Shown here in pieces: positions 6,705-31,442 of a DNA stretch of 64,000 nt (positions are counted from its first letter, which is position 1; each line of letters opens with the position of its first letter). The translations under genes and the position numbers were made by a program. Under the pieces are notes generated by a model. That model was not told the DNA's origin. It did not search any database and was given only the letters and a program-made list of their open reading frames with translations. Source of the stretch: Granulicella sp. S190 (lineage in GTDB: Bacteria > Acidobacteriota > Terriglobia > Terriglobales > Acidobacteriaceae); contig NZ_LMUD01000039.1 in the NCBI RefSeq assembly GCF_009766095.1, positions 98,762-162,761 on the forward strand, read 5' to 3'.

Positions 6705-6860
6705 TCTTCCTCTTTCCTTCCAGTTGTTCTCGCGCATCTGCCCTGATCACTGTAGTCAGCACCGAGACAAACTTTCGCATATTCCTAAGGGTAACTTCAT
6801 TTTGCTGCGATTGCGCGGTCTTATCCCCGTTTCCCAGCGAAGACGCTAAAATGTATAGTG

Positions 6861-8189
6861 ATGATCGATCTTGCATTTGTGCGGGCGAACCTGCCCCTCG
6901 TAGAAGAAAAATTACGTGCACGTGGAATGGACCCCTCCACTGCGCTAGGTAACTTCACAGATATCGACCGCAAACGCCGCGAAGCCATTACTCAAGTAGA
7001 AACACTTAAAGCCCAGCGCAACAGGCTGACGGACGAGATTGCAAAGCTAAAGCGCGAAGGTGCCGACACCACCTCGCAGGCTTATCAAACACGATCTCTT
7101 AAGTCTGAGGCGGAGTATCTCGAATCGGCTGCAGCAGTCTCCGACTCGCGCCTGCGTGAGATTTTACAGGCTCTCCCCAATCTTCCCCAGGATGACGTTC
7201 CTACTGGCAAGTCGGCCGAAGAAAATCGTGAAGAAAAGACCTGGGGTGACAAACATTCCTTCGAATTCACCGCCAAACCTCACTGGGAGCTTGGCGAGTC
7301 GCTAGGAATTCTAGACTTCAACCGCGCTGCCAAGATCTCTGGCTCGCGCTTTGTCGTCCACTTTGGTCAGGGGGCAAGGCTGGAGCGTGCTCTCGCAAAC
7401 TATATGCTCGACCTTCATACCAAAGAGCATGGCTATACCGAGGTTCTCCCGCCTTACATGGTCAATTCGAAGTCACTCTTTGGCACTGGCCAGTTACCCA
7501 AGTTCGCCGAAGACCTCTTTCATTGCGATGACAAAGGCAGCTACGAGCCCGGAGTCTATCAGGAGAACGACCACTGGCTCATCCCCACCGCTGAGGTGCC
7601 CGTTACAAACCTTTTTCGCGATGAGACTCTGGACGAATCACAGCTTCCGATATCCTTCTGCGCTTACACTCCATGTTTCCGCTCTGAGGCAGGATCCTAC
7701 GGTAAGGATGTTCGCGGCATGATTCGACAGCATCAGTTTCAGAAGGTCGAATTAGTAAAGTTTGTACGTCCGGAAGATTCGGGTGTCGAACACGAACGCC
7801 TTACCCGGCATGCAGAGACCGTGCTCGAACGCCTCGGTCTGCCCTATCGGCGCATGCTGTTATGTGCTGGGGATATGGGGTTTTCTGCATCCAAGACTTA
7901 TGATCTGGAAGTCTGGCTACCCGGCCAAAGCCTCTATCGAGAAATCTCTTCCTGTTCGAACTTTGGGTCATTCCAGGCTCGCAGGGCAAATATTCGCTAT
8001 CGCCCGGCCGGAGCAAAAAAGAGTGAATTTCTTCACACGCTTAACGGTAGCGGTCTTGCCGTAGGCCGCACCTATCTTGCAATCTTGGAAAACTATCAGC
8101 AAGCAGATGGCACCATACGGATCCCAGCGGTGTTAGTTCCTTATATGAACGGCGATACTGTCATTCGCAAACAACAGGGCAGGAGCTAA
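6861..8189 (+). CDS. serS: Serine--tRNA ligase
   Basis: Class II aminoacyl-tRNA synthetase that charges tRNA-Ser (and tRNA-Sec if present). The N-terminal 110 residues form the helical-hairpin arm ([20 protein letters not shown] and the following helix), typical of SerRS. The catalytic core shows motif 2 around [20 protein letters not shown] and motif 3 [16 protein letters not shown] followed by [11 protein letters not shown]. The length of 442 residues is normal. A GTG at 6858 immediately precedes the ATG at 6861 in frame; either could be used. It is the first gene of a compact plus-strand trio: the next start lies 3 bp after the stop, with its ribosome-binding site AGGAGC overlapping the end of serS. 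Confidence 0.97.
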
Positions 8190-8617: not shown

Positions 8618-9322
8618 ATGACCACCCTAAGACGCATCGCGACCTTACTCATCTTATCGTCAGTCGTTTCAGGGCTCGCTATATCCTCCGCATTTGCACA
8701 ACCAAAGCCGGGCCATCTGGATGAAGTATTACGGCAGATGGATGCAGCGAGCCTGAAGTTCCAGTCGACGGAGGCCAGTTTTCAGTGGGATCTCTACGAG
8801 AAGGTTGTGCAGCAGACGACCACGCAGAAAGGTACCATCTACTTCAAAAAAGAAGGGCCTGTAACTGTAATGGGAGTGAAGATGGTTTCTCCCTCTCTCA
8901 AGATTATCGAATTCAAGAATGGGCTACTTCGACTCTACGATCCTTCTATCGATCATCTGACGGTCGTTGATGCAACAAAAAATAAAGCTCAGCTAGAAAG
9001 TTTTCTGACAGTAGGCTTCGGTGGCAGCGGAAAAGATCTCGCAAAGGCATGGACAATCTCGGACTTAGGAGATGAGATAGTCAACGGCGTGCAAACAGCA
9101 AAGCTGGATTTAGTTCCCAAAGATCCCGCACTTCGCAACAATTGCACTCACATGACCATCTGGGTTGACCCTGTGCGCGGAATCGAATTGAAACAAAGCC
9201 TTTATCTACCTTCAGAAGACTATAGAACCGCTGTTTACAACAATATCAAATACAACCAGGGCGTCGACACCAAGCCGTATCAGATAAAAACCGACGGCAA
9301 GACCACTACCGATTCACACTAA
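8618..9322 (+). CDS. LolA-like outer-membrane lipoprotein carrier protein
   Basis: The 234-residue protein has a signal peptide (TTLRRIATLLILSSVVSGL, ending AISSAFA) and then the features of the LolA/LolB/RseB fold: an early helix LDEVLRQMDAASLKFQSTEA, a run of strands (TQKGTIYFKKEG, VMGVKMVSPSLKIIEFKNGLLRLYDPSIDHLTVVDA), and the later pattern TAKLDLVPKDPALRN..THMTIWVDPVRGIELKQSLY, which is typical of LolA-like proteins in Acidobacteria. LolA carries lipoproteins across the periplasm to the outer membrane. The ATG at 8618 is chosen because it gives the signal peptide; an earlier TTG at 8579 would add 13 hydrophilic residues. It ends the serS trio and is convergent with the M29 peptidase gene, whose stop lies 37 bp away. 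Whether it is the main LolA or a paralogue cannot be told. Confidence 0.8.
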   Translation: MTTLRRIATLLILSSVVSGLAISSAFAQPKPGHLDEVLRQMDAASLKFQSTEASFQWDLYEKVVQQTTTQKGTIYFKKEGPVTVMGVKMVSPSLKIIEFKNGLLRLYDPSIDHLTVVDATKNKAQLESFLTVGFGGSGKDLAKAWTISDLGDEIVNGVQTAKLDLVPKDPALRNNCTHMTIWVDPVRGIELKQSLYLPSEDYRTAVYNNIKYNQGVDTKPYQIKTDGKTTTDSH

Positions 9323-9359
9323 GATGCTTTAGCCTTGACTGGCGCTATTACGACATCGA

Positions 9360-10418
9360 TTATGCATCGAGCAAGAAATGGCCGTCGCGCATAATTTGCT
9401 CTTCGCCATCCGCGTCTCCAAGCCAAATGCTGAACTCCAGACCGACCACATCGATGTGAGTAGATGATTTCCATGGAGCTCCAGTGTGAGCCCCGTACGG
9501 ATCTCCGAAGGCGATGTGGATCCCCGGGAACTTTTCGTCTTGAAGAATGTTACCTATGACGCGATCAACGCCGATGTTCGTGCCGATGGCAAACTCACCG
9601 ACACGGTCGGAGTTCTCGTCAGTGTGAGTGTAGGTCCAGAAGTCTCGCTCCAAATCTTTGTTCTCGCTGGAGACTTTAGTAATGCGGTTTCCTTCGATAT
9701 TAATAGTCAACGGCTGTGCACGTAGGATCCCATAGCGCGCACAAAGATAATCGCCAACAACGCCGTCAACCACAAAAACACCGTTCACCTCGCCGGGTGC
9801 TGTAAAACACTCGCCGCCAGGAAGATTACCCCACTTTTCAGTGGAGATAATTCCAGAGGTCTTAAACCATCGATAGTCAGGATTGAACTGGGCATGAATG
9901 TCCGTACCCGCTGGGGTTGTAGCGCGAACGTATGTGGCGACACGGACCTTATCAAGGACCGCTTGTGAGAGGCGATCAATAGCGAGGAAGTCGGCGCGCA
10001 TTCCTTGGGTCATGATTTCAGGGGTGATGTTGACCATGTGTGCGTGGCGCATACGGCGGCGATTGACAACGTCTGTCATCTGCATGCGACTGCGGAGTTC
10101 GTTCGGCTGGACTTCAACTGCAAAAATGCTGACCTGCGAAGTCTCCATATCAGCAAGGATTGCCGCAGGAAGATCAGTGAGAGGTCGCGGCGAGAGGGCT
10201 TCGAGGACGAAAGCATTCCAGGTGCAGCCGATGCGCTCTAGTTCGGCGACGAGAGAGGCCGCAATGGTGAGGCAGCGCTCGTCGGTGATGAGAGTGACCT
10301 TCTCGTTGGGCTGGACGCGCAGGCAGGTGGTGACCGCGTTACGAGCGCCTGGTGTGAACTCTGCTGGGAAGGCGGTGGCGCGAAGGTCTGGTGCTGTCTG
10401 TATTGCTTGATCCATCAT
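9360..10418 (-). CDS. M29 family aminopeptidase
   Basis: The 352-residue protein matches the M29 (thermophilic aminopeptidase, AmpS/PepS/aminopeptidase T) metallopeptidases, which remove N-terminal residues from peptides with two Co/Zn ions. Expected ligand motifs are present in order: the Glu-rich STEKWGNLPGGECFTAPGE, RVGEFAIGTN (metal-ligand Glu in VGE), and the C-terminal IHIAFGDPYGAHTGAP..STHIDVV with its histidines and aspartate. The family is usually 370-410 residues, so this is a slightly short member lacking part of the N-terminal region. Two ATGs (10418 and 10415) are in tandem. It is convergent with the LolA-like gene and sits 506 bp downstream of the YbdK-like ligase on the same strand, a context that could link it to breakdown of the product of that cluster (inference). 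Confidence 0.85.
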   Translation of the reverse strand: MMDQAIQTAPDLRATAFPAEFTPGARNAVTTCLRVQPNEKVTLITDERCLTIAASLVAELERIGCTWNAFVLEALSPRPLTDLPAAILADMETSQVSIFAVEVQPNELRSRMQMTDVVNRRRMRHAHMVNITPEIMTQGMRADFLAIDRLSQAVLDKVRVATYVRATTPAGTDIHAQFNPDYRWFKTSGIISTEKWGNLPGGECFTAPGEVNGVFVVDGVVGDYLCARYGILRAQPLTINIEGNRITKVSSENKDLERDFWTYTHTDENSDRVGEFAIGTNIGVDRVIGNILQDEKFPGIHIAFGDPYGAHTGAPWKSSTHIDVVGLEFSIWLGDADGEEQIMRDGHFLLDA

Positions 10419-10924
10419 GGGTGCGGCCTTCCGAGTAAAACTTCTCTCTAAGATAGCTTGTTACCGCTGCCTTACAGGAGGAAAAGGAATCTCTCTTAGC
10501 GGGAGTGGCCATCCGATAGAGCCCTACCCCATCGTTTCTGTTCTAAAGTATTCCATCGTTGAGACTTAGGTTTGGACTTGGTTTTGCCCCGTTGCGTTAG
10601 GTCTTGAAGATGTTATGGAGTTTTGTAGAGTCTTCATTTTCTATGAACTGTCGGTAAAAAAGAAACCCCGACGCCTGTCGGGGTTTCCATTTATAGGACT
10701 GTGTTAATTATATCGGGTTCGGACGGGTGGTGTGCCACCCGAATCTGCTTGTCTGGCAAGGGGATTTGTAGCTTAGGGCTTGACAGGATGTTTAAGGCGT
10801 CTGGTTGGCAGTAGCGAAGAATGGAGGCGGTAGTGATAACGCATCACCGAGGCAAAAGGCAACAAACGCAGATTCCCTTCGGGAATGACAACAGCAAAAT
10901 AAATGGTGGGATTCCTCGCTGCGC
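10419..10924 (-). other. 506-bp intergenic stretch with terminator and dispersed-repeat modules
   Basis: No coding frame is convincing here. It holds a perfect terminator-like hairpin (10663-10686), a second hairpin GGGTGG-TGTG-CCACCC (10725-10740) that begins a segment ending in GGGCTTGACAGG near 10788, and a segment 'gattcccttcgggaatgaca' at 10872-10891. The second and third pieces resemble parts of the 24.1-24.7 kb intergenic region, so they look like copies of a dispersed intergenic repeat. Confidence 0.6.
10663..10686 (-). terminator. Rho-independent terminator downstream of the YbdK-like gene
   Basis: AAACCCCGAC (10663-10672) and GTCGGGGTTT (10677-10686) form a perfect 10-bp stem with a four-base loop. 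On the minus strand the stem is followed by a run of six T (complement of 10655-10660), the standard rho-independent layout. It lies about 240 bp past the stop of the YbdK-like gene, so it would end the minus-strand transcript of the amide-ligase cluster before the M29 peptidase gene. Confidence 0.85.
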
Positions 10925-12028
10925 TTAGAGGCCGGCGCGGGTTTCTGCGGCCATGTAGTCGACTACGGATTTGAGGCTGCCGGTTTCGTGGAAGACCTTG
11001 AGCTGGCGATCGGCACCGGTGCCTTGCGCAAGCATGGTGTGAATGTAGTTGAGCTCGTTGCGACTGCCTAGCTCGTCTACGACGTCGTCGATGAATGCAA
11101 GATATTCGAGGATGAGCTCTCGGACAGGAACTTCGGTTTGTTTGCCAAAGTCGATCATCTTGCCGTCGATGCCGTAGCGAACGGCGCGGAATTTGTTTTC
11201 CATGAGCAGCGCGCGGGAGTACTGGCGATAGTCGATGTTCTTTGAGTGTAGGTGCCAGAGTTTGCATGCTGTAGCCTGAATTAGTGCCGCGATGGCAATT
11301 GACTCTTGCGCACGGAGGGGAATATCGCAAATGCGGACCTCGACAGTATCGAAGAAAGGATGAGGACGTACATCCCACCAAATTTTTTTTGCATTGTCGA
11401 TCGAGTTGGTCTTGATAAGTAGGTTGACGTAGCTCTCAAACTCCGAGTAGCTGGCGAAACTATCGGGGAGATTAGTGCGAGGAAAGTTTTCAAAGACCTT
11501 GGCGCGGTAGCTCTTGTAGCCCGTCTCCATTCCTAGCCAAAAGGGGGAGTTAGTGGAGAGGGCGAGGATGTGAGGAAGGAAGTAGCGAAGCGAGTTCATG
11601 ATGCGGATGGCGGCTTCGCGGTCTTCAATGCCGACGTGTACGTGGAGGCCGAAGATGAGGTTGGCTCGGGCAACGAGCTGGAGGTCTTCGACAACCTGAG
11701 CATAGCGGGGGTCAGGGTAGATTTCCTGAACGCGCCAGTCAGCAAAAGGATGCGTGGCTCCGGCGATGAGCAGAAGGTTGTGCTCTTCGGCTAACGCGAT
11801 CATGTTGCGGCGGAGATCGAAGAGATCCTCTTGCGCTACCTGAATGTTGCTGCAGATGCGAGTGCCTACTTCGATGACGGACTGATGCATCTCGGCCTTG
11901 ACGCGCTCTTCGAGGCGGAGCTTGCCCTTAGCGAGCATTTCAGTCGCAATGTGCGAGCGTAGATCGCGGGTTTCGGGGTCTACTGTCTGGTACTCCTCTT
12001 CGATGCCTAGCGTGAAGGATGGCCGCAT
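10925..12028 (-). CDS. YbdK-type carboxylate-amine ligase (GCS2 family)
   Basis: The 367-residue protein belongs to the glutamate-cysteine ligase GCS2/YbdK family (COG2170), ATP-dependent enzymes that join a carboxylate to an amine. Evidence: the opening TLGIEEEYQTVDPETRDL with the metal/ATP-binding Glu cluster, LLLIAGATHPFADW, NLIFGLHVHVGIEDRE, LALSTNSPFWLGMETGYKSYR, WWDVRPHPFFDTVEVRICDIP and NKFRAVRYGIDGKMIDF. E. coli YbdK has weak glutamate-cysteine ligase activity in vitro but its physiological substrate is unknown, so no symbol is given. The start at 12028 has CAGGAGAG just upstream; an earlier in-frame ATG at 12067 lacks one. It is the last gene of a minus-strand group (esterase, ATP-grasp, YbdK) and is separated from the ATP-grasp gene by 396 bp containing an apparent gene remnant. 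Confidence 0.9.
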   Translation of the reverse strand: MRPSFTLGIEEEYQTVDPETRDLRSHIATEMLAKGKLRLEERVKAEMHQSVIEVGTRICSNIQVAQEDLFDLRRNMIALAEEHNLLLIAGATHPFADWRVQEIYPDPRYAQVVEDLQLVARANLIFGLHVHVGIEDREAAIRIMNSLRYFLPHILALSTNSPFWLGMETGYKSYRAKVFENFPRTNLPDSFASYSEFESYVNLLIKTNSIDNAKKIWWDVRPHPFFDTVEVRICDIPLRAQESIAIAALIQATACKLWHLHSKNIDYRQYSRALLMENKFRAVRYGIDGKMIDFGKQTEVPVRELILEYLAFIDDVVDELGSRNELNYIHTMLAQGTGADRQLKVFHETGSLKSVVDYMAAETRAGL

Positions 12029-12424
12029 ACACTCTCCTGTTTTCAGTTTGAGTGAGAAGCGTATCATCCGGGGCTTTTTAAGGGTGAAGGGTTCTTGAAG
12101 TGGGCTTTGTAAGAACGAGGCTGCACTCGCGAACAGCCTCGTTCGCCGGCTTTGTCAGGCCGTCAGCGCGGCTCGGTATAGTTCTGGGCGTAAGCATTCT
12201 CAACTCCGGGCAGAATCTCCAGGATGGAGAAGTAGCGGTCCCAAAAGGGCGTTTCGCGCAGCTCTTAGACCAAAAGCTCTGCTAGTGATCATCAAAGGCA
12301 TTGTGGACGGGCCGGCGAACGCAAAGAGAGAGATGCCGAAGGTCTAGAGTCTCGTGTAAGACGAGCTATGTTCGGGTATCTCTCCGCAGATTGGGTCAGC
12401 AGCAGCCCGCCAGTGGAGGGGCGG
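12029..12424 (-). other. 396-bp stretch with an inverted repeat and a gene remnant
   Basis: No intact gene. AACGAGGCTG (12114-12123) and CAGCCTCGTT (12134-12143) are a perfect 10-bp inverted repeat with a 10-base loop and no following T-run. Just beyond it lies a short open stretch (12163-12264, minus strand) that reads like the C-terminus of a real protein (listed separately). Confidence 0.5.
12163..12264 (-). pseudogene. Possible C-terminal remnant of a lost gene
   Basis: Read leftwards from 12264, immediately after an in-frame TAA, the sequence gives about 33 residues ([18 protein letters not shown] then [15 protein letters not shown]) and a TGA at 12163-12165. The composition (aromatic, acidic, a PFWDRYF patch and regular amphipathic spacing) is protein-like rather than random, but no start codon is in frame. 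It sits in the unusually wide gap between the ATP-grasp and YbdK-like genes, where a third gene of the operon could once have stood. I do not recognise the family. Small sample size makes this tentative. Confidence 0.3.
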
Positions 12425-13468
12425 TCAAGGAGCTTTCTTGGCGGATTTCTTTGTGGCTGTCTTTTTAACTGCCTTTGCCGGGGCTTTTTTCGGTGACGCT
12501 TTCGTGGCTGTCACAGCGGCAGGTTGCTTTGTCGCCGGACCGGCGAGGAAAGAGCCCCAGTTCAACTGCTTCTGGAGCGTGCTGGCGAATTGCGCTTTCT
12601 TTACGGCGAGGTTTGCGACTTTGTCGACGATCCACTCGAAACTTTCTTTGCCGACGGAGTGGAGGTCCGCGTCAGGTGCGGGGTTCATGAAGTCGATGGC
12701 GTAGGGGATGCCATCTTCTACTGCGAACTCTACAGTATTGAGGTCGTAGCCGAGGGCTTTGCATAGGGTTAGGGCATCTTTTTCGACGCGCTTGAGGAGC
12801 TTCTTATCGTACTCAGGTGGGTCGAGGACGTAGCGCTGCTCATGCGGGCGGCGCGGGTCGTAGGGCATAATTCGGACGTCGGCCTGACCTACAACGTAAC
12901 AGCGGAAGTACTCTTTGAAGTTGACTGCGGCCTGAAGGGTCATGCAAAGGTCGCGGGTCTGGTCGTAGGCGTGGAAGAACTCGTCGCGGTTGTGAACGTG
13001 AAAGACATCGCGCCAACCACCGCCATCATGTGGCTTGAGAAAGGCCGGGAAACCTACATAGTCGAAGATTCCGTCCCAGTCGAGGGGAAACTGAAGATTT
13101 CGAAGTGAGCGCTCGTTAATTTGTGGAGGAAACCTCTTATGGGGCAAAAGGACGGTCTTTGGGACAGCCACGCCTAACTTCGCAGCCAGAGCATAGTTGA
13201 AGAACTTATCGTCCGCCGACCACCAAAAAGGATTGTTGATGATCTGTGTGCCGGTAAGGGCAGCGTTCTTGAGAAATGCTCGGTAGAAAGGCATGTCGTG
13301 GGAGATACGATCGACGATGACGGCGTAGCCTGAGGGCGCGGCCATTTGAACTCCACCTACGCAGACGAACTCAGCCCGAATGCCCTCGATCTCCATTCCG
13401 TTGATGCGATCGACCAACGCACCGGGAAAGGTATTTTCCATTCCGAACAGGACACCGATCTTCTTCAC
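12425..13468 (-). CDS. ATP-grasp ligase-like protein with Lys/Ala/Pro-rich tail
   Basis: About 347 residues. An N-terminal pre-ATP-grasp domain (KKIGVLFGMENTFPGALVDRIN) is followed by ATP-grasp features: VGFPAFLKPHDGGGWRDVF (ATP-binding Lys and glycine loop), CYVVGQADVRIMPYDP, and the metal site TVEFAVEDGIPYAIDFMNPAPDADL, where D and N in DFMNP would hold magnesium. ATP-grasp ligases join a carboxylate to an amine through an acyl phosphate. The last about 30 residues are a basic, low-complexity tail with repeated KKAP/AKK patterns, like a histone H1 tail, which suggests binding to nucleic acid or another polyanion. I chose GTG at 13468 because GGAGG lies five bases upstream; ATG at 13480 would add four residues. 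The esterase gene ends 43 bp upstream on the same strand. Substrate is unknown. Confidence 0.8.
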   Translation of the reverse strand: MKKIGVLFGMENTFPGALVDRINGMEIEGIRAEFVCVGGVQMAAPSGYAVIVDRISHDMPFYRAFLKNAALTGTQIINNPFWWSADDKFFNYALAAKLGVAVPKTVLLPHKRFPPQINERSLRNLQFPLDWDGIFDYVGFPAFLKPHDGGGWRDVFHVHNRDEFFHAYDQTRDLCMTLQAAVNFKEYFRCYVVGQADVRIMPYDPRRPHEQRYVLDPPEYDKKLLKRVEKDALTLCKALGYDLNTVEFAVEDGIPYAIDFMNPAPDADLHSVGKESFEWIVDKVANLAVKKAQFASTLQKQLNWGSFLAGPATKQPAAVTATKASPKKAPAKAVKKTATKKSAKKAP

Positions 13469-13511
13469 TGAATCCTCCATAGAAGGTTATTAGGTGAGTT
13501 TTGCTTGCGAA

Positions 13512-14222
13512 CTAGAGATAAGTCTGCAACATTCTCTGCCACCAAGGCCAGTCATGGCCTGTGTTATCGCCCCAAACGTCGAGACGGCAGGGAATATTTT
13601 TATTGTGAAAGATCTGTGCCATTCGTTCGTTGTCGTTCCAACATTGATCATGCACACCTGTTGCGAGGACATAAGTGTTACGACGGTAACGATCGAGATA
13701 CCAAGGGTCGCCGATATTGGGGAGATAGTGCATGGGGATATTGAAGTAGCAGTCGTCATCGTAGTAACCGCGGAGAAAGTTGGAAGGATCAAACGCTCCA
13801 CTCATAGAAAGCATGCCAGTGAAAATATCGGGATGCCGAAGGGCAGTATTCATAGCATGATAGCCGCCAAAGCTAGTGCCGATGGCACCTAGACCGGAGT
13901 ACTGATTCAACTGGCGGATAAGAGGTACCACCTCCTTGATGATGTAGTTGTCATACTGCAATTGGCGAGCTATGCGCCAGCGTGGTGGAACATCACGGTT
14001 GTACCAGCTTTCTCCGTCGACCGAGTCGACGCAATAGAGCTGGAGGTGGCCGTGCTCGAGCTTGTCCTGAACGGTGCTGACCATTTGGCGGTCTTCAAAC
14101 TCGTAGAAGCGGCCGCAGGACGTGGGGAAGACGATTGCGGGATAGCCTGCGTGTCCGAAGGCAAGCAGTTCCATATCACGCCCAAGAGAGGGTGAGAACC
14201 ATTTGTGGTATTCGCGTTTCAT
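13512..14222 (-). CDS. Esterase-like alpha/beta hydrolase (COG4947 type)
   Basis: The 236-residue protein MKREYHKWFSPSLGRDMELL is an alpha/beta hydrolase of the putative-esterase class. The nucleophile elbow is GAIGTSFGGYHAMN (Ser about 117), an acidic residue is available in TGVHDQCWNDNERM, and the histidine lies in GDNTGHDWPWWQRML near the C-terminus. There is no signal peptide, so it acts in the cytoplasm. Proteins of this type are often found beside ATP-grasp and YbdK-like ligases as I recall, which fits here: the ATP-grasp gene follows in the same direction. The start at 14222 matches the conserved N-terminus; an upstream ATG at 14249 would add nine residues. It is divergent from the second esterase gene (start about 14367). 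Substrate unknown; hydrolysis of an ester or amide conjugate is inference. Confidence 0.8.
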   Translation of the reverse strand: MKREYHKWFSPSLGRDMELLAFGHAGYPAIVFPTSCGRFYEFEDRQMVSTVQDKLEHGHLQLYCVDSVDGESWYNRDVPPRWRIARQLQYDNYIIKEVVPLIRQLNQYSGLGAIGTSFGGYHAMNTALRHPDIFTGMLSMSGAFDPSNFLRGYYDDDCYFNIPMHYLPNIGDPWYLDRYRRNTYVLATGVHDQCWNDNERMAQIFHNKNIPCRLDVWGDNTGHDWPWWQRMLQTYL

Positions 14223-14366
14223 CGAGCTCCCTCTGCTAGTCTGATGCAATCGTATTTTATTGGAGAAGCTTCTTCAGCATTGAAACAATTATCGCCATCC
14301 CAATCCATTCCGGCGCTTGAGACTCTTGAGTGCAAAACTACTTCTGCGAACTCGCCCGCAGGCGAG

Positions 14367-15164
14367 ATGAGTGAGCATATCGCAAACGATCTCGATTCCA
14401 ATCCGAGATATATTGTGCGCGAATTTCACTCGGAGATTTTGCCTGACGACCGCGCAGTGTCGGTGTATCTGCCTCCTCAGTACCTGCAGCAGGAAGAACG
14501 CCGCTTCCCTGTTTTTTACCTGCAGGATGGGCAAAACTTGTTTGACGGGCGCACTTCTTATCTCGCGGGACAAACCTGGAATGCTCATACCACAGCCGAC
14601 CGGCTCACGTTGGACGGTGAGATCGAGCCTGTGATCCTAGTAGGGGTTGCCAATACGGGGCTTCGTCGAATGGCGGAGTACACGCCGACGCGTGACTTCA
14701 AGATGGGTGGTGGCGAAGGCCGCAACTATGGGAGACTGCTGGTCGAGGAGCTGAAGCCGCTAATCGACAACTCCTACCGCACGTTACGAGGGGCGAAAGA
14801 CACAGGCCTTGGCGGGTCTTCTTTAGGAGGATTGATCTCGCTTTATGTTGGCTTTACATGTCCAGAGGTGTTCGGAAAGCTGGCAGCGATGTCGCCTTCG
14901 CTCTGGTGGAATCAGCGCAGTGTTGTTCGCATGCTCGACTTGCGCAGCTCAAAGCCTGAATTGCGTATCTGGCTGGATATAGGGACAGCAGAGGGAGCGC
15001 GTCATGTGCGGGATGCGGATTTACTAGAGCGTGTGTTAGTGAAGCACGGCTGGAAGGCTGGGAAAGACTTTGTTTATATGAAGGATCCTGATGGCGTCCA
15101 CGATGAAAATGCCTGGTCGGCACGCTTTGGGGATGTATTGCGGTTCCTCTTTCCGCCCGTTTAA
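14367..15164 (+). CDS. Esterase family alpha/beta hydrolase (COG2819 type)
   Basis: The 265-residue protein reads MSEHIANDLDSNPRYIV, then VREFHSEILPDDRAVSVYLPPQYL and FPVFYLQDGQNLFDG, the usual opening of the Fes/IroE/COG2819 putative esterases. The nucleophile is in DTGLGGSSLGGLISLY, LSPSLWWNQRSV follows, and the catalytic His is in DPDGVHDENAWSARF. These enzymes cleave esters such as acylated sugars or siderophore lactones; some members are cytoplasmic. No signal peptide is seen from the ATG at 14367. In-frame ATGs at 14244 and 14205 exist, but the latter would overlap the divergent gene's start. Together with the minus-strand esterase, ATP-grasp and YbdK-like genes it forms a candidate functional group around a shared divergent promoter region (14223-14366). 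Confidence 0.8.
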   Translation: MSEHIANDLDSNPRYIVREFHSEILPDDRAVSVYLPPQYLQQEERRFPVFYLQDGQNLFDGRTSYLAGQTWNAHTTADRLTLDGEIEPVILVGVANTGLRRMAEYTPTRDFKMGGGEGRNYGRLLVEELKPLIDNSYRTLRGAKDTGLGGSSLGGLISLYVGFTCPEVFGKLAAMSPSLWWNQRSVVRMLDLRSSKPELRIWLDIGTAEGARHVRDADLLERVLVKHGWKAGKDFVYMKDPDGVHDENAWSARFGDVLRFLFPPV

Positions 15165-15182
15165 GGGAGTTTCGCTTCTCCG

Positions 15183-15211
15183 TTGCGAAAAGCTGTGTTT
15201 TCAGCCATACT
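15183..15211 (+). promoter_or_regulatory. Possible sigma-70-type promoter for the rpsP operon
   Basis: TTGCGA at 15183-15188 and CATACT at 15206-15211 are spaced by 17 bases, about 90 bp ahead of rpsP. The match to TTGACA/TATAAT is only partial, and an AT-rich alternative (taatatatc, about 15222-15230) is nearby. Confidence 0.25.
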
Positions 15212-15302
15212 TAGATGTTGGGTAATATATCTAAGGTCCCTGTTCAGAGAAAGATTCGACAGCGCGGCTATGTCACCCAAACCAAAAATGTTCTGAAAGG
15301 CA

Positions 15303-15563
15303 ATGCCAGTGTTGATGATCCGTTTGGCGCGCGTTGGAGCGCGTAAGCAACCGCACTACCGTATCGTTGTTATTGAAAAAGACCGCGCCCGTAACGGCCG
15401 GTCGGTCGAGGTTGTCGGCACCTACAATCCGCGTACAAACCCTGCGACGGTTGACCTAAAGCGTGACCGTATTGACTACTGGACTGGCAATGGAGCGCAA
15501 TTGTCGGAGCGCGTTGGAAAGCTGATGGCGCATAAGCCATCAGAAGCTGTAGCCGTCGCCTAA
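15303..15563 (+). CDS. rpsP: 30S ribosomal protein S16
   Basis: The 86-residue protein carries the S16 signature MIRLARVGARKQPHYRIVVIEKDRARNGRSVEVVGTYNP in its first 45 residues and the following RDRIDYWTGNGAQLSERV. S16 is an early-assembly protein of the small subunit. The ATG at 15303 gives MPVLMIRLAR; a GTG at 15309 would give the more usual shorter N-terminus. It heads the ribosome-maturation group rpsP-khpA-rimM-trmD-rplS, with a strong hairpin just after its stop. Confidence 0.97.
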   Translation: MPVLMIRLARVGARKQPHYRIVVIEKDRARNGRSVEVVGTYNPRTNPATVDLKRDRIDYWTGNGAQLSERVGKLMAHKPSEAVAVA

Positions 15564-15578
15564 GGGTCACTGGTCGAT

Positions 15579-15617
15579 GCTATCTTTGGGCATAAGATGT
15601 TGGTTCCCAAAGATAGC
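15579..15617 (+). promoter_or_regulatory. Perfect 12-bp hairpin between rpsP and khpA
   Basis: GCTATCTTTGGG (15579-15590) is the exact reverse complement of CCCAAAGATAGC (15606-15617), with a 15-base loop. It lies 16 bp after the rpsP stop, in a 291-bp gap (15564-15854) that is unusually wide for this operon. No T-run follows, so it is not a standard terminator; an RNA-processing or mRNA-stability element, or a site that lowers expression of the downstream genes relative to S16, is more likely. The rest of the gap holds nothing I recognise. Confidence 0.6.
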
Positions 15618-15854
15618 TGACACAGTATGTTCCAAGTGCTTCGCACTGCACACCTTTTGACGTAGACTCCTTGGTATTGCACAGTCGCATGCAGTTGGCC
15701 TTGCAAAAGCAGAGAGCCCAGGGTGTACAGCCTTGGACGCTCTGCGACCGATGATTTGCTCGTTGCAGCACTTTTTCAAAGATCTCGCATTAGACGAGAC
15801 AGAGGGAAAGAGCTTGAGCGTTTCATCGTGACTCCCAGACCCAGAAGGTGTGTG

Positions 15855-16154
15855 ATGACCCAGGCAACTCAGTTTCCTGCAGGGGAAAACCCTGTAAAGA
15901 ACATGACAGACCTTGTAGCGGAGATAGCCCGTGCCTTGGTAGACGACCCAGACAGTGTCTCGGTCGAGGCCATACAAGATGGCGAAAGCACCGCGATTCG
16001 TTTGCGGGTTGCCACCAGTGATGTAGGCAAAGTGATAGGCAAACAGGGTCGAACAGCACGTTCTATGAGAACGATCCTGAGTGCAGCCAGCATGAAGCTG
16101 AAGCATCGTTTTTCATTAGACATCGTGGAACACGACCCGCCAGCCGCGCCCTAG
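15855..16154 (+). CDS. khpA: KH-domain RNA-binding protein KhpA (YlqC family)
   Basis: About 99 residues with a single KH domain: LVAEIARALVDDPDSVSV near the start, then IRLRVATSDVGKVIGKQGRTARSMRTIL, which contains the GXXG RNA-binding loop (GKQG), and LKHRFSLDIVEHDP at the end. Proteins of this family bind RNA and work in ribosome assembly and, with KhpB, in cell-length control in some bacteria. Its position between rpsP and rimM is the conserved one. The ATG at 15855 was chosen because the conserved region begins soon after; a longer frame from 15723 would add a non-conserved 44 residues. Confidence 0.93.
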   Translation: MTQATQFPAGENPVKNMTDLVAEIARALVDDPDSVSVEAIQDGESTAIRLRVATSDVGKVIGKQGRTARSMRTILSAASMKLKHRFSLDIVEHDPPAAP

Positions 16155-16209
16155 AGTACTGATCACGCACACACTTGCTGGGCTCATGCGTTGGTTTAAA
16201 TTTTTCTAT

Positions 16210-16815
16210 ATGACGCAAAATGCTCCAGCCTGGATTGTGTTAGCTCATCTGCTTCGACCGCAAGGTCGCAAAGGCGAGCTGCTGGCAGAACTGTTTACTG
16301 ACTTTCCTGAACGGTTCGAGGATCAGACTAGAGTGTTCCTCGCCCCTTCAGGCTTTGCAGGGGGGGAGGCAGAAGCTCGTCTCGCTGAAATCGTGGAGTT
16401 CTGGCTGCCCGTAGGGAAGAATGAGGGTCGCGTCGTGCTGCAGTTTGCAGATGTTCTCACTATCTCTGATGCGCAGTTGATCGCAGGCATGGATGTGCTT
16501 GTGCCACGGGAGGAGAGGCTTCCGTTGGACGACGACTCGGTTTACATAAGCGAGTTGGTAGGCTGCACGGTGTTTGACGGCATAGTTCCCGTTGGCATCA
16601 TAGACAACGTACAATTTGCCACCACCGCTGATGGAGTTCGGCGTCTGAGCGATGCTGCTCCGCTGCTGGAGGTGACGTCGGTGGCTGGTGAGGAGATTTT
16701 AATTCCTTTTGTGAAGGCGTTTCTGATTGAAGTGGATACGCAAGCGAAACGCATTGAGATGAAGCTGCCCGAAGGTTTGGTCGAGGTAAATAAAAACTCT
16801 AATGGCAAGAGTTAG
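16210..16815 (+). CDS. rimM: Ribosome maturation factor RimM
   Basis: The 201-residue protein has the RimM N-terminal domain (PAWIVLAHLLRPQGRKGELLAELFTDFPERF, then FADVLTISDAQLIAGMDVLVPREERLPLDDD) and a PRC-barrel-like C-terminal half (ISELVGCTVFDGIVPVGIIDNVQF, EILIPFVKAFLIEVDTQAKRIEMKLPEGL). RimM binds S19 and helps mature the 3' domain of the 30S subunit. Two starts are possible: ATG 16186, which adds eight residues, and ATG 16210 (MTQNAPAW), which fits the family better; neither has a strong ribosome-binding site. It follows khpA in the same direction, 55 bp away. Unusually it is followed by an antisense gene rather than directly by trmD. Confidence 0.95.
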   Translation: MTQNAPAWIVLAHLLRPQGRKGELLAELFTDFPERFEDQTRVFLAPSGFAGGEAEARLAEIVEFWLPVGKNEGRVVLQFADVLTISDAQLIAGMDVLVPREERLPLDDDSVYISELVGCTVFDGIVPVGIIDNVQFATTADGVRRLSDAAPLLEVTSVAGEEILIPFVKAFLIEVDTQAKRIEMKLPEGLVEVNKNSNGKS

Positions 16816-16848
16816 TTCCAAGTTAGAGCCAAAACCTAGAAAATACCG

Positions 16849-17739
16849 CTAGAAGTGGTAGGCCACGCCTATTGAAACAATTGGATAGACGGGAACTTTC
16901 TTTAGATCTTCGTTGAGGATTTGGATCTCCTGTCTGAGGCTGGTCTGCGCCTCTGGGTTCTTCATAAAACTGACACAACCTTCACTTGTGCAGGCGGTTC
17001 CACTCAGATTGACGTCAATGGTGGCTGCCCCTGTATATGCGACTCCAAACTCAACGGGGACTGTGAGGTGATGATTGTCACGCGGCAGAGTATTCCCGAA
17101 GCCAAGCAACAGCATAGGTGAAAGATTATGCGGATAGATGACGGACATGGTGCCGTGAACAGGATCATCAACGCTATTGAGAAAGCTTTGGTCGCCGAGC
17201 GTAAAGTTCTTCCCTGCGGGGACCGTGGCAACCGATGACACGGTGTTTCGAGAATAAAGAACACCAGGACTGATGTGAAAGGTGTGACCTGTAGGAAACC
17301 AATCGAGAGTGGTCTGCGAGGATTTGAAGTGCAAACTTGCGTTGTAGTTCACCCCATCGATGCCAAAGGGGTAGGCGAAAGTTAAGTAGCTGATACCAGA
17401 ACGGATATTGAAGCATCGGAGTAGTGGTGTCGCCAGCTCTATGCCAGCTCCTAAAGTACTGCCTTTGACACTAACGGCTACTGTACGGAACGGGTTCTGT
17501 GACGGCAGTCTCTTTGCAGAATGAGTTGTCAGGCTGTTGCGTATCAACCCTTCATTACTGGATGAATCACGGGCTGACTTGGTAGGCTCTGAGATCGAGA
17601 GACTATTTGTGGTCGTGGGTATCGTGAGAGCGAGTTGCGGCGCTATTGAATCCGGCAATATCTGATCCTGCGCCTCGGCAGTAAAACCAAAAGATACTGA
17701 CAGCAGAAACAGTAGCGCGATAAGTTTTAGCTGCAGCAT
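16849..17739 (-). CDS. Predicted outer-membrane beta-barrel or secreted protein, unknown
   Basis: From ATG 17739 the 296-residue protein starts with a signal peptide (MLQLKLIALLFLLSVSFGF, then TAEAQ) and continues with about 70 residues of Ser/Thr-rich linker and a strand-rich region (VAVSVKGSTLGAGIELATPLL, NIRSGISYLTFAYPFGIDGV, TVPVEFGVAYTGAATIDVNLSG). The C-terminal VSIGVAYHF ends in an aromatic, as in proteins assembled by BAM. I do not recognise a named family. It lies on the minus strand between rimM and trmD, convergent with rimM (33-bp gap) and divergent from trmD (163-bp gap), so it breaks a normally continuous operon. An upstream ATG at 17796 would put 19 residues ahead of the signal peptide. 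Confidence 0.65.
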   Translation of the reverse strand: MLQLKLIALLFLLSVSFGFTAEAQDQILPDSIAPQLALTIPTTTNSLSISEPTKSARDSSSNEGLIRNSLTTHSAKRLPSQNPFRTVAVSVKGSTLGAGIELATPLLRCFNIRSGISYLTFAYPFGIDGVNYNASLHFKSSQTTLDWFPTGHTFHISPGVLYSRNTVSSVATVPAGKNFTLGDQSFLNSVDDPVHGTMSVIYPHNLSPMLLLGFGNTLPRDNHHLTVPVEFGVAYTGAATIDVNLSGTACTSEGCVSFMKNPEAQTSLRQEIQILNEDLKKVPVYPIVSIGVAYHF

Positions 17740-17902
17740 ATCAAGGCTCTTGCGGCCTGCCGCGATGATCTGAAAGACGATAGATACACTGGTCATCCCT
17801 GTAAGATTTTCGTTTGAAATCAGTCTGGTGGTTCTACAACTTCCAAGTGATATGGTGCAATCTGGAAGTCATAAACAACCGACCGCACCTCACTTATCGT
17901 CT

Positions 17903-18718
17903 ATGCGTTTTGATATCATCACGATCTTTCCCGACTTTTTCTCAGGTCCCTTTGACTTTGGGATTCTTAAACGCGCCCGTATTGCAGGTCTTGTCGATAT
18001 TGCTACTTATGACTTGCGCAGCTTCACGCACGACCGCCATCGAACGGTAGACGACCGCCCGTTTGGCGGAGGTGAAGGCATGGTGCTAAAGGCGCAACCA
18101 ATCTATGAAGCAATGCAGTCAATAAATGTTTCTCCGAAAGAATCGCGAGAAAGACAGAAGGAGACGGTGATTCTTTTGTCAGCTCAAGGACAGCCATTTA
18201 CTCAATCGTTGGCTCATGAGTTATCTAAGACGGAGAGAGTTATCATTTTGTGCGGACGCTATGAAGGAATCGACGAGCGGGTCAATGAACTTCTGTGTGA
18301 CCGCGAAGTTTCGATTGGAGATTACGTCTTATCAGGTGGAGAGCTTGCAGCGGCAGTAATTGTGGATGCCGTGGTTCGACTGCTGCCCGGGGCGCTTGGG
18401 AATCCCGACTCTTCGCGATTCGAAAGCTTTGGCGCAAAGGAGGTCCACTCCGAAAGTGTTGACCGCGCTGGGGCACCGCGATCAACTTATGGAGCAGGAG
18501 GATTGTTGGACTATCCCCATTACACGCGACCCGCTGATTTCTTGGGAATGACAATTCCGGAGGCATTAGCTGGAGGTAACCACGAGACAATCCGGCGGTG
18601 GCGTCGCAGAATGGCGTTGAAGAAGACTCTTCAAAACCGCCCTGATCTGTTAGAGAGGATCGAGATCACCGACGAAGACCGGGAAATTCTTGCGGAGTTG
18701 CGCGAATGCGGAGAATAA
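17903..18718 (+). CDS. trmD: tRNA (guanine-N1-)-methyltransferase TrmD
   Basis: The 271-residue SPOUT methyltransferase adds a methyl to N1 of G37 in tRNAs that read CNN codons, which prevents frameshifting. Motifs: MRFDIITIFPDFFSGPFDFGILKRAR at the start, YDLRSFTHDRHRTVDDRPFGGGEGMVLK, VILLSAQGQPFTQSLA, the trefoil-knot SAM site IILCGRYEGIDERVNE and EVSIGDYVLSGGELAAAVIVDAVVRLLPG, and YTRPADFLGMTIPEALAGGNHETIRRWRR. The start at 17903 gives the family N-terminus; ATG 17828 would add 25 unrelated residues. It belongs to the rpsP-khpA-rimM-trmD-rplS group but here has its own upstream region because of the antisense gene before it. Confidence 0.97.
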   Translation: MRFDIITIFPDFFSGPFDFGILKRARIAGLVDIATYDLRSFTHDRHRTVDDRPFGGGEGMVLKAQPIYEAMQSINVSPKESRERQKETVILLSAQGQPFTQSLAHELSKTERVIILCGRYEGIDERVNELLCDREVSIGDYVLSGGELAAAVIVDAVVRLLPGALGNPDSSRFESFGAKEVHSESVDRAGAPRSTYGAGGLLDYPHYTRPADFLGMTIPEALAGGNHETIRRWRRRMALKKTLQNRPDLLERIEITDEDREILAELRECGE

Positions 18719-18818
18719 TAAGATTAGGCTAGTTAACGGGTTTCTGGCCTGCGATTCCTCCGGAAAGTGAAGATTTCGTGTACACTAAAGGTCGAGTCCA
18801 ACATAGGAAAGTTGTGTC

Positions 18819-19181
18819 ATGTCCATTCATCCCATTATGCAGAAACTGGCCGCTAAATTAGAGCGGACCGATCTACCCGCGTTCGCCCCTGGCGATACAG
18901 TTCGAGTTCAAGTAAAGATTCGTGAAGGCGAGAAAGAGCGTCTGCAGGCTTTTGAAGGCATGGTGATAGCGTGCCGTAAGGGAGCGCAGGGATCCTTCAC
19001 TGTTCGAAAGATGAGCTTCGGCCAAGGCGTCGAGCGTATCTTTCCATACAACTCTAAGGTTGTCGACAAAGTGGAAAAGGTACGTTCCTACGAGGTTCGT
19101 CGTTCGAAGCTATTCTACCTCCGTGGTCTGCGAGGCAAGGCCGCTCGTCTGCGCGAGGTTGAGCGCGCCACCACGAAGTAA
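18819..19181 (+). CDS. rplS: 50S ribosomal protein L19
   Basis: The 120-residue protein has the L19 signature: [63 protein letters not shown] and [21 protein letters not shown]19 sits at the subunit interface of the ribosome. It follows trmD by 100 bp in the same direction, and a perfect terminator-like hairpin lies 24 bp after its stop, so it probably ends the main transcript of the operon. Confidence 0.98.
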
Positions 19182-19204
19182 GCATTCTGTTCCTGTTTTC
19201 CACT

Positions 19205-19230
19205 AAAGCCACGACTTCGGTCGTGGCTTT
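19205..19230 (+). terminator. Rho-independent terminator after rplS
   Basis: AAAGCCACGAC (19205-19215) and GTCGTGGCTTT (19220-19230) form a perfect 11-bp stem closed by the very stable TTCG tetraloop, ending in TTT. It lies 24 bp past the rplS stop and just before rnhB, so rnhB is probably expressed by read-through or its own promoter. Confidence 0.88.
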
Positions 19231-19267
19231 GCTTTGCCTGATGGTTATACACTCAGGCTTGAAGAGC

Positions 19268-20044
19268 ATGGCTTCGACTCCCTCCATACGTGCGACCCGT
19301 AAGGTTACAGCAGCTACAGCAAAACAACGCATGCTCAAGCAACTGGTGTGCAGCGACGCGCCAGAGCAAGCTCTGCGGTATCACGGATTTCAACGGATCG
19401 CGGGAGTAGACGAAGTAGGTCGAGGTGCATTGTTTGGCCCCGTAGTTGCCGCCGCAGTGATTCTACCCAAGTCTTTGGAGGAGTTATCGAACGCAGGTCT
19501 GAAAGATTCGAAACAGATGACTCGGGAGGAGCGAGAGTCGCTCAACCAGCAGATACGCGCGATGGCAATGGCAGTGTGCGTAGCCGAAGTCGACGCAGAG
19601 ACGATCGACCGCATAAATATCTATCAGGCAACTCGCCTGGCAATGCTCGCAGCGGTGCAGGGGTTGACGGTTGCTCCAGATCATTTGTTGATCGATGCCA
19701 TGATACTCGATCATCCTTGCCGGCAAACAAAGCTTATCTACGGAGATGCCCTGAGTCTTTCTATTGCGGCTGCTTCCGTCATCGCGAAGGTACATCGCGA
19801 TGCATTGATGAGAGAGCTGGACGCAATTCATCCTGGATACGGGCTGGCATCGCATAAAGGATATGGAACCCCGGAACATCGGCGAGCGCTGGCGGAAATA
19901 GGACCGTGTGCGCTGCATCGTAGGAGTTTTGCGCCAGTTCGCGGAGTTGATCCTGAAGCAGCACTTGAGCAGGTTATAAGCGCTGAACTTCTATTTGAAG
20001 ATGCAGATCTGGACGCGAACTTAAAGCAAGCTGAGTGGGCATGA
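19268..20044 (+). CDS. rnhB: Ribonuclease HII
   Basis: About 258 residues. RNase HII removes RNA from RNA/DNA hybrids and single ribonucleotides from DNA. The catalytic motif IAGVDEVGRGALFGPVVAAAV holds the first Asp and Glu, LIDAMILDHP the next Asp and IAAASVIAKVHRDALM the last; GYGLASHKGYGTPEHRRAL and ALHRRSFAPVR are also typical. The N-terminal about 35 residues before RYHGFQRIAGVDE are not conserved and basic. Alternative starts are ATG 19223 and ATG 19331; 19268 follows a short purine-rich AAGAG. It follows rplS across a terminator and is convergent with the DUF2235 gene, whose stop lies 45 bp away. Confidence 0.93.
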   Translation: MASTPSIRATRKVTAATAKQRMLKQLVCSDAPEQALRYHGFQRIAGVDEVGRGALFGPVVAAAVILPKSLEELSNAGLKDSKQMTREERESLNQQIRAMAMAVCVAEVDAETIDRINIYQATRLAMLAAVQGLTVAPDHLLIDAMILDHPCRQTKLIYGDALSLSIAAASVIAKVHRDALMRELDAIHPGYGLASHKGYGTPEHRRALAEIGPCALHRRSFAPVRGVDPEAALEQVISAELLFEDADLDANLKQAEWA

Positions 20045-21422: not shown

Positions 21423-22019
21423 ATGAGTGAAATTGACGTTGACGATGCGGTTGATCCGATAGCACTTTTCAGGCTGTGGATGAAAGACGCGGACGAGAGA
21501 GAGATAAACGATCCGAATGCGGTGGCGTTAGCTACGGCTACCCGTGAGGGGGTGCCGAGTGTGCGCATGGTGCTGATGAAACGTCTTGATACCCAGGGGT
21601 TCTGCTTCTACACGAATGCAGAGAGTCAGAAGGGGACGGAGTTGGCGGAGAATCTCAAGGCTGCGATGTGCTTTCACTGGAAGTCGTTGCGGCGGCAGGT
21701 GCGGGTTGTGGGGAGCGTGGTGCAGTTGCCCCCAGAGGATGCAGATGAGTACTTTCATAGCCGGTCAAGACTGAGCCAGCTCGGTGCAGCTGCCTCACAG
21801 CAGAGTCGCGTCGTGGCCTCGCGGGAGGTGCTTGTGAGTCGCGTAAAGGAGCTGGAGCGCGAGTTTCCGGGAGAGATTCCTCGACCGGATTACTGGCGAG
21901 GTTACGTTCTTCGACCAGAGCAGATCGAGTTCTGGAAGGACGGTGAAGGGCGGTTGCACGACCGTTTTTTGTTTACGCGAGTCGGCGATGGGTGGAGCAA
22001 AGAACGACTGTTTCCGTAG
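21423..22019 (+). CDS. pdxH: Pyridoxamine 5'-phosphate oxidase
   Basis: The 198-residue FMN enzyme oxidises pyridoxine or pyridoxamine 5'-phosphate to pyridoxal phosphate. Motifs: PNAVALATATREGVPSVRMVLMKRLDTQGFCFYTN (FMN binding), KGTELAENLKAAMCFHWKSLRRQVRVVG, FHSRSRLSQLGAAASQQSRV and the C-terminal PRPDYWRGYVLRPEQIEFWKDGEGRLHDR with the R-x-R end region. The length is normal. The ATG at 21423 is preferred over a TTG at 21402. It stands alone: divergent from DUF2235 and convergent with the DUF1800 gene (11-bp gap). Confidence 0.96.
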   Translation: MSEIDVDDAVDPIALFRLWMKDADEREINDPNAVALATATREGVPSVRMVLMKRLDTQGFCFYTNAESQKGTELAENLKAAMCFHWKSLRRQVRVVGSVVQLPPEDADEYFHSRSRLSQLGAAASQQSRVVASREVLVSRVKELEREFPGEIPRPDYWRGYVLRPEQIEFWKDGEGRLHDRFLFTRVGDGWSKERLFP

Positions 22020-22030
22020 TATCCAGCTCC

Positions 22031-24121: not shown

Positions 24122-24682
24122 GGACGCCTCTGGTGGGTTAGACCTGAGTTCGGGTGGTGAAGTTGCGTTTCGGGTTTTGGGGTACCCCCCTCCTCCTCCG
24201 CGGGGTATCTTGGGCGCAAGTCTATTGGATGGAGTGGTTTACAGGGGGTGAGTGGCTGTAAAATATTCCATCCAAATGAGTTACGCGCAAAATACTTGTT
24301 ATGAGTGAGTTAGCGAGTGTTCGGGTCTGCCGTGTTTTTTATGCTCTGTCTTCTAAGTATAGAAGTTGACGGTGAACTGATGCGCCACGCGAATATGCTG
24401 GATTGGCGCGGGTTTCGAGTGGACTGATGCTTGACAGGTTTGTTGGGCGACACGGGCTTCTGATGTCGTCGTTTTGTGGTGCCTGGGTGGTTCCCTAGTG
24501 CAAATATGCGGTCGTTCGCTCGGGACGGTCGCTGGAGTGGGCTTCGTTCTATCGGGATGCCAGGAATAGAAACAGCAGATTCCTCCCCTTCGCTGCGGAA
24601 TGACAGACGAAACAGACTACGGCAACAACCTGATGCCGAGATTCTTCGCTTCGCTCAAAGTGACTAGCGGGAACGATATGAG
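24122..24682. other. 561-bp gene-free stretch containing dispersed-repeat modules
   Basis: No frame looks coding. The segment near 24379-24440 (GCGCCACGCGAATATGCTG... to ...TGCTTGACAGG) parallels the one near 10731-10788, and 24571-24614 (gattcctccccttcgctgcgg then aatgacag) parallels 10872-10891. A further copy of the last type (gattcttcgcttcgctcaaag, then tgac) follows at 24641. These look like pieces of a short interspersed intergenic repeat. Confidence 0.45.
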
Positions 24683-25393: not shown

Positions 25394-25499
25394 TCGGTGG
25401 AGTTAGTTTAGCTTGCGGCTGCTGGGATGAGACGCACGGAGGAGATTTGAGTTACAGCGGTGGTTCTGAGTGGGGTTGGTGGGTGAGGGAAACTTTGCG

Positions 25500-26276: not shown

Positions 26277-26300
26277 AGCGGCGGATCGCAACGCTGCTTC

Positions 26301-27296: not shown

Positions 27297-27431
27297 AGGG
27301 TGTTTCCCTTCTATATCTGCATTCATAAGACTCTTAATGGGAGCCCCTGGTTACAAAACGATGCAGAAGGGGCAATGGATGGAAGATTTGGAAGTGATAG
27401 GAGATGGGAGGTTGTGAGAGATTAGAAGGCA

Positions 27432-30251: not shown

Positions 30252-30340
30252 CGGTTTGGGGTAAAGATAAAACACGCAACTGCAAAATGCGGGGGTCTCT
30301 CCGCTGCGGTGCTCACGATGAGACTGTGATCAGCTTCGGT

Positions 30341-30460
30341 CGAGATGACGATATTTTCTCTGGTGCGGATAAAGACGAGGCGAGACAGAAGCGACGTGGT
30401 TGAGATAACAATGTTTTCTCTTGTGTGGATAGAGGCGAGGCGAGACAGAAGCCGCGTGGT
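30341..30460. repeat. Two tandem copies of a 60-bp unit
   Basis: 30341-30400 and 30401-30460 align base for base without gaps: the cores 'attttctctggtgcggata' and 'gttttctcttgtgtggata' are followed in both by agacgaggcgagacagaagc-like sequence and end in cgtggt. About ten positions differ. The array lies immediately before the hydratase gene (start 30479) in a 227-bp gap and has no coding frame. Confidence 0.75.
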
Positions 30461-30478
30461 TGAGAGACACTGGACGAC

Positions 30479-31440: not shown

Positions 31441-31442
31441 GC

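Follow-up and report, generated by a model that had tools for sequence, protein, structure and literature searches.

Ligases of the YbdK type are widespread orphans, and the ATP-grasp ligases RimK and LysX/ArgX act on the C-termini of proteins. Conserved amidoligase operons, in which ligases of different folds are linked, have reportedly been described by Iyer et al. in 2009. The linkage of ligases of different folds is a recognised theme, the pattern having been seen before according to one source (PMC4431377). In another, YgiC and YjfC are termed peptidylpolyamine synthetases and Cp1B is the ATP-grasp ligase of E-64 synthesis (PMC12568646). The locus considered here lies in a window of 64,000 nucleotides (the whole stretch of DNA that was analysed) from the soil bacterium Granulicella sp. 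S190, situated on contig C33 of a genome (label G000) of 5.05 Mb in 54 contigs. It comprises a predicted esterase (EST1), an ATP-grasp ligase (GRASP), a YbdK-type ligase (GCS2) and a metallopeptidase (M29) on the minus strand and a second, divergent esterase (EST2) on the plus strand; two ligase families of about 400 amino acids each, F9 and F12, are recurrent neighbours of the set in related loci. The chances are slightly better than even, in our estimate, that the set encodes a stepwise pathway, independent of the ribosome and of nonribosomal peptide synthetases (NRPS), to a peptide-amide conjugate, a reading based on the order, conservation and co-occurrence of the genes and on the folds and active-site-type invariant residues of their products.

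The initial annotation had proposed one system for these genes, an idea that would fail if their homologues did not occur together elsewhere; they do, and the neighbourhood recurs in loci of Acidobacteriota and Bacteroidota. An alignment search of named genomes with GRASP gave 536 confirmed relatives. The 80 best were retained together with their flanks; among these, Edaphobacter strains are the closest named relatives at the locus (87-93% identity in GRASP). Neighbours were counted by tblastn because clustering of the antisense-rich open reading frames (ORFs) left various loci without a GRASP tile, and only loci with enough flank were included (n = 54 to 78). In 62/78 loci EST1 is encoded on the strand of GRASP and at most 1 kb upstream of it, and in 54/65 GCS2 lies no more than 3 kb downstream; M29 was found within 7 kb downstream in 36/56, F9 within 9 kb in 37/54 and EST2 on the opposite strand, at most 4 kb upstream of GRASP, in 39/61. 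The median gaps between the ends of the tblastn matches were 32 nt for EST1-GRASP (n = 62) and 52 nt for GRASP-GCS2 (n = 67, to the start of the match), the latter versus about 0.4 kb in the window. When loci were grouped by record title, some titles being apparently mis-binned (L058 'Rhodanobacteraceae', L045 'Verrucomicrobia'), those of Bacteroidota carried EST1 in 11/12, GCS2 in 9/11, F9 in 10/10, EST2 in 3/11 and M29 in 0/11 cases, and the remaining, mostly acidobacterial loci EST1 in 51/62, GCS2 in 44/50, M29 in 35/42, F9 in 26/41 and EST2 in 36/48. A GATase-like gene (PF00117) is present in 11/11 Bacteroidota loci and in 0/45 of this remainder. The order kept in both phyla is EST1-GRASP-GCS2-(M29 or GATase)-F9. 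The stable core consists of EST1-GRASP plus GCS2-F9, M29 and EST2 are clade-limited, and the gene system extends beyond the window, F9 often lying downstream of the set elsewhere. The notion of these genes as a system holds for the conserved core, and has to be amended in that the set is not whole in the window, F9 and F12 being encoded elsewhere, and in that M29 and EST2 are confined to certain clades.

Co-occurrence was assessed in 151 genomes, namely 61 (the window genome and 60 relatives) and 90 of Bacteroidota. Weak matches were left out (remote GCS2 at 35% in G057 and G060, GRASP in G086, F9 in G119, F12 in G052, G053, G055, G058 and G060, and sub-cut-off GCS2 in G076 and G102), and a GRASP fragment at a contig end in G018 was counted as present. 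Among the 61 genomes, GRASP was found in 27, a close GCS2 in 20, F9 in 19 and a strong F12 in 18, with F9 and GCS2 together in 19, F12 and GCS2 in 18 (F12 falling wholly inside the GCS2 set) and F12 and F9 in 17. The 90 Bacteroidota contained strong GRASP in 29, strong F9 in 23, GCS2 above cut-off in 22 and F12 in 18, the corresponding pairs numbering 21 for F9 with GCS2, 14 for F12 with F9 and 13 for F12 with GCS2; GRASP accompanied F9 or GCS2 in 24/24 and F12 in 18/18. In none of the 151 genomes did a strong F9, a strong F12 or a close or over-cut-off GCS2 occur without GRASP, even where the genes are unlinked. F9 lies within 5 kb of GRASP in 16/23 and GCS2 in 15/22 Bacteroidota; since 7/23 have F9 more than 5 kb away or on a different contig, and G000 has F9 and GRASP on separate contigs, the co-occurrence is not accounted for by linkage alone. 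The idea of F9 as an obligate neighbour was rejected because of its unlinked position in G000 and in further genomes. One partner was found alone in a few genomes, F9 without GCS2 in G066 and G109 and GCS2 without F9 in G094 and G051.

Several loci depart from this arrangement. In the Bacteroidota loci L093, L095-L098, L100, L101 and L103, F12 is found on the opposite strand together with an M17 leucyl aminopeptidase, possibly the counterpart of M29, and in L095, L098, L100 and L103 an EST2-like esterase comes next. In L025, from a genome of the same class as the window genome (G052), EST1 and GRASP are divergently oriented, and GCS2 is followed by a segment with 37% identity to the GATase-like protein of Bacteroidota, which extends the GATase variant to this class. 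In L107 and L105, titled Ignavibacteria/Kapaibacterium, the neighbours of GRASP are, by eye, a glycosyltransferase and a lipase-like hydrolase in place of EST1 and GCS2; the genome of L107 has F9 outside the 21-kb locus (G070:C18). The Terriglobus roseus chromosome NC_018014 carries GRASP at both L051 and L052, which are separated by about 460 kb and share the same listed matches, possibly a large duplication. In the window's own genome (L123, G000:C54) a LuxR-type response regulator is located about 0.45 kb downstream of F9, and several relatives have a gene like it (family F27, 17 loci) after F9.

That two different classes of ligase sit together, as initially annotated, is upheld: the two folds are unrelated, GRASP keeps invariant residues of ATP-grasp type and GCS2 aligns with YbdK. 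No Pfam family matched GRASP (12425..13468, minus strand), and its score against TIGR00768 rimK_fam (24.9 bits) is below the membership cut-off of 143.4; the same profile was nevertheless matched by 30/30 GRASP homologues at E <=0.01 (best 6e-10). The AlphaFold model, with a predicted local distance difference test (pLDDT) value of 84.7, superimposes on RimK (4iwx VIA) with Z 22.7, a root-mean-square deviation (rmsd) of 2.9, 265 aligned residues and 18% identity and on LysX/ArgX with Z about 21.5, so that GRASP, as modelled, is clearly of RimK/LysX-like fold. K149, Q183, E251, D263 and N266, numbered from the ATG at 13480, are invariant in 30/30 homologues and are of active-site type by analogy with the superfamily. 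An assignment of GRASP to the R2K clade was rejected (R2K_2 17.8 against a gathering score of 26.2 in one member; 4/30 at E <=0.01, best 0.0019). GCS2 (10925..12028, minus strand) matches PF04107 with 213 bits, NF010039 with 524.7 bits against a cut-off of 371 and TIGR02050 with 307.9 against 176.4, and aligns with E. coli YbdK (1r8g) over 349 residues at E 2e-56; by sequence it is clearly a member of the YbdK subfamily.

F9 has been placed by structure alone, as its sequence profile gave a single PDB match, at E 0.29. In the members scored no Pfam match exceeded the cut-off, and no clear name emerged from scans of Pfam and NCBIfam: the one member scored against PF03738 GSP_synth reached 14.7 bits against a gathering score of 29.3, and weak Pfam matches among 23 members were to GSP_synth in one (E 0.0014), PF14397 ATPgrasp_ST in four (best E 0.00045) and TTL in one. 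Foldseek with the F9 model (pLDDT 92.2) returned 23 PDB matches at E <=0.001, all of them glutathione-synthetase-like, GspS, YgiC or Cp1B. In structure comparison YjfC (Z 26.4, rmsd 3.5, 344 aligned) and YgiC (25.8) came out highest, ahead of GspS at about 24 (residues 1-403), glutathione synthetases at about 23 and Cp1B at 22.0. The model thus indicates that F9 shares the fold of YgiC, YjfC, GspS and eukaryotic glutathione synthetase over the whole protein, and D96, E113, Q115 and K303 are invariant in 23/23. F12 is, by family scans, an ATP-grasp protein related to ligases of the Ddl/BacD type.

Both esterases match PF00756 in Pfam. EST1, an alpha/beta-hydrolase of this type with 236 residues (13512..14222, minus strand), retains S117 within GxSxG, D192 and H223 in 18/18 aligned homologues; EST2 (14367..15164, plus strand) is its divergent neighbour. 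M29 (9360..10418, minus strand), an aminopeptidase T-like member of the M29 metallopeptidase family, scores 52 bits against PF02073 (cut-off 27); the match spans residues 162-348, the C-terminal half, and leaves the N-terminal half outside.

In the pathway that we favour, amide bonds would be built stepwise by as many as four ligases that use ATP and have two unrelated folds. GRASP would act as the hub, forming or lengthening a short peptide, in all likelihood with glutamate; GCS2 would add a bond of gamma-glutamyl type, and F9 may activate the carboxylate of the peptide and join it to an amine, either a polyamine or an amino acid; this amine capping is proposed because the nearest folds of F9 join polyamines to peptides. 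F12 would supply a further ligation or residue in many members, and EST1/EST2 and M29, or the GATase-like protein in Bacteroidota with M17 nearby in some, would hydrolyse or recycle the conjugates. The order of the steps, the glutamyl and amine substrates and the recycling role are what we infer from these data; the target, which may be a small molecule or a protein tail, and the role of the esterases are likewise presumed. A narrower proposal, possible but on balance rather improbable, is that ligases of RimK fold, of YbdK type and of a new GspS-fold family make a glutamyl-peptide-polyamine conjugate across phyla, in bacillithiol-using Acidobacteriota and Bacteroidota; as part of this polyamine reading, and just as tentatively, the conjugate could be glutathionylspermidine-like and made without glutathione.

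A number of observations weigh against a stepwise pathway encoded by one set. F9 and F12 are not neighbours in the window, and their own genome has them on contigs C54 and C39. F12 occurs without F9 in four Bacteroidota (G085, G094, G102, G106), besides G051 among the relatives, and F9 without F12 in nine of the 23 F9-bearing Bacteroidota, besides G020 and G052. GRASP is missing from G076, where GCS2 scores 334.5 bits (cut-off 371), and the Bacteroidota G079 and G158 carry a more remote GRASP but no other member of the set. In seven relatives GRASP occurs in the absence of GCS2, F9 and strong F12, with EST1 beside it in 7/7; EST1-GRASP thus forms one module and GCS2-F9 a second, F12 being partly independent. 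Loci titled Ignavibacteria, Kapaibacterium or Calditrichaeota are mostly devoid of the neighbours (EST1 0/4, GCS2 1/4), and in the window a terminator-like hairpin sits between GCS2 and M29. The Fisher p values for co-occurrence, 1e-6 to 1e-17, ignore shared ancestry and are indicative only. The motif residues of Cp1B are given as R139, D141, E163 and N165 (PMC12568646); by a reading of motif order against that source, and not by structural alignment, the arginine of R-x-D is replaced by T/Q in F9 and the asparagine of E-x-N by Gln, so that the chemistry of F9 may differ.

Among the alternatives, GRASP may be a RimK-like ligase for a protein tail, either its own Lys-rich one or that of a partner, with GCS2 and F9 elaborating the product and the peptidase removing it. 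RimK and LysX/ArgX are the closest folds of GRASP, and at least 25% Lys/Arg in the last 30 residues was seen in 34/80 GRASP homologues versus GCS2 0/71, EST1 0/65, F9 0/47 and EST2 0/63. In the window the Lys/Ala-rich tail (residues 316-351; 12428..12535, minus strand) is predicted to be disordered, residues 316-350 all falling below pLDDT 50. The tail is, however, missing by the same measure in 46/80 homologues, including many Bryobacterales-type loci, and known enzymes of the F9 fold act mostly on small molecules. Neither a small acceptor gene nor a Pup-like small gene by the ligase was identified in the 40 recurrent families, of which the small ones were not analysed singly, ORFs below 70 residues being unexamined. 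We consider this tail modification unlikely. The tails themselves are histone-H1-like, rich in Lys/Ala, variable in length and found in several phyla, Pfam HC2 being matched by 2/30 members; in loci L091 and L101 an apparent domain of helix-hairpin-helix type (by eye) lies beyond the tail.

A glutathione-like thiol made by non-orthologous enzymes is the second alternative: GCS2 would form gamma-glutamylcysteine, F9 add the third residue and EST1 act like S-formylglutathione hydrolase. YbdK has gamma-glutamyl:cysteine ligase activity according to the title of a report (Lehmann 2004), the 23 Foldseek matches of F9 all belong to the glutathione synthetase/GspS/YgiC/Cp1B group, and by sequence the PDB entry that best matches EST1 is an S-formylglutathione hydrolase (E 2.3e-4), with a different esterase almost level (2.8e-4). 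The initial annotation had excluded glutathione synthesis of the standard type for want of evident GshB features; GshB (TIGR01380) is indeed above cut-off in 0/61 genomes, with one sub-cut-off match in G060, but the reasoning falls short in that F9, of the eukaryotic glutathione-synthetase/GspS fold, belongs to the set. On the other hand, bacillithiol presumably fills the thiol role: BshC (TIGR03998) was matched in 61/61 genomes, 58 above cut-off (402.5 bits in G000), with and without the set, and bacillithiol-type thiols or their genes are recorded for Acidobacteria as well as Bacteroidetes, a Polaribacter among them (PMC6282198). As BshC is universal in the 61 genomes and the set patchy, even within a single genus, the set does not supply the general thiol, and a replacement of glutathione by the set was demoted once the distribution of BshC had been seen. 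GRASP is needed too, which glutathione does not require, and the nearest folds of F9 are peptidyl-polyamine synthetases. The product of the set is therefore probably not glutathione, and this thiol route appears improbable.

Still less credible is that the genes are neighbours by inheritance only, EST1-GRASP having one function, GCS2-F9 another and M29 and EST2 being bystanders, as might be suggested by EST1-GRASP without the others in 7 of the 27 GRASP-bearing genomes (own and relatives), by the clade-limited M29 and EST2 and by the hairpin ahead of M29, since the same order is kept in different phyla and strong F9 or F12 and close or over-cut-off GCS2 are never found without GRASP, even unlinked, in the 151 genomes (G018 with its contig-end fragment included). 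A role in defence gets no support, as PADLOC matched 0/7 proteins.

The five genes and the limits initially annotated for them are real, 9360 being the end of M29 and 15164 that of EST2; serS (6858-8189) flanks them on one side and rimM-trmD-rplS-rnhB (16186-20044) on the other. EST1 starts with the ATG at 14222. The likely starts of GRASP and GCS2 were judged by ribosome-binding sites: the 43 bp reported between the EST1 stop and the GRASP start are exact if GRASP begins with the GTG at 13468 behind GGAGG, the alternative ATG at 13480 overlapping this GGAGG and the conserved alignment block starting at KKIG just after; GCS2 likely begins with the ATG at 12028 behind GGAG, its ORF opening at 12067. 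For EST2 an ATG at about 14367 is likely within an ORF opening with GTG at 14205. From the two start codons, EST1 and EST2 share a divergent upstream region at 14223..14366, in which no sigma-70-like site was found (scan total 3 versus 3.8 expected in shuffles). The intrinsic-terminator-like hairpin between GCS2 and M29 (10661..10688, minus strand) has 12 pairs followed by six T; the scan gave 9 terminator-like sites versus 6.5 expected in shuffles, a count that is itself no evidence. Rfam gave no match above the gathering score across 9000-16300, including the divergent region, a scan for tandem repeats found none, and a plasmid collection searched with GRASP gave no match. Elsewhere in the window, at 22000-40000, G+C is about 0.58-0.62 and the GC skew of 0.2 to 0.33 is above that of the preceding 20 kb.

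The set provides one YbdK-type subfamily with a list of partners that predicts function, adds a GspS-fold family barely covered by curated libraries and points to a metabolite common to two phyla; owing to the co-occurrence, the question can be tested in cultured carriers such as Terriglobus, Granulicella, Polaribacter and Winogradskyella. Among the literature matches listed, no paper was recognised by title and abstract opening as describing the set, which is weak evidence of absence.

Compared with known systems, F9 resembles YgiC, YjfC and GspS in having the same fold along the entire protein (331-346 aligned, Z 24-26, rmsd 3.2-3.8) and in its D...E-x-(N/Q) and KP...G-rich elements, but differs from them in an identity of 11-15%, in a GSP_synth score below cut-off in the member scored, in its replaced R-x-D arginine and E-x-N asparagine and in being encoded with GRASP and GCS2. 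Cp1B is likewise an ATP-grasp ligase of glutathione-synthetase fold that makes an amide in an NRPS-independent pathway (PMC12568646); it is, however, fungal and uses trans-epoxysuccinate, whereas neither an oxygenase nor an ANL ligase was noticed in the recurrent families of the set that were looked at. GRASP has the fold and ATP-grasp-type residues of RimK, LysX and ArgX, yet is set apart from them by 12-18% identity, by its TIGR00768 score, by EST1 as its usual partner and by its Lys-rich tail. GCS2 is akin to E. coli YbdK/PRK13515 as an NF010039 member above the cut-off, but is linked to GRASP and F9, and NF010039 itself is above cut-off in 0/14 control genomes.

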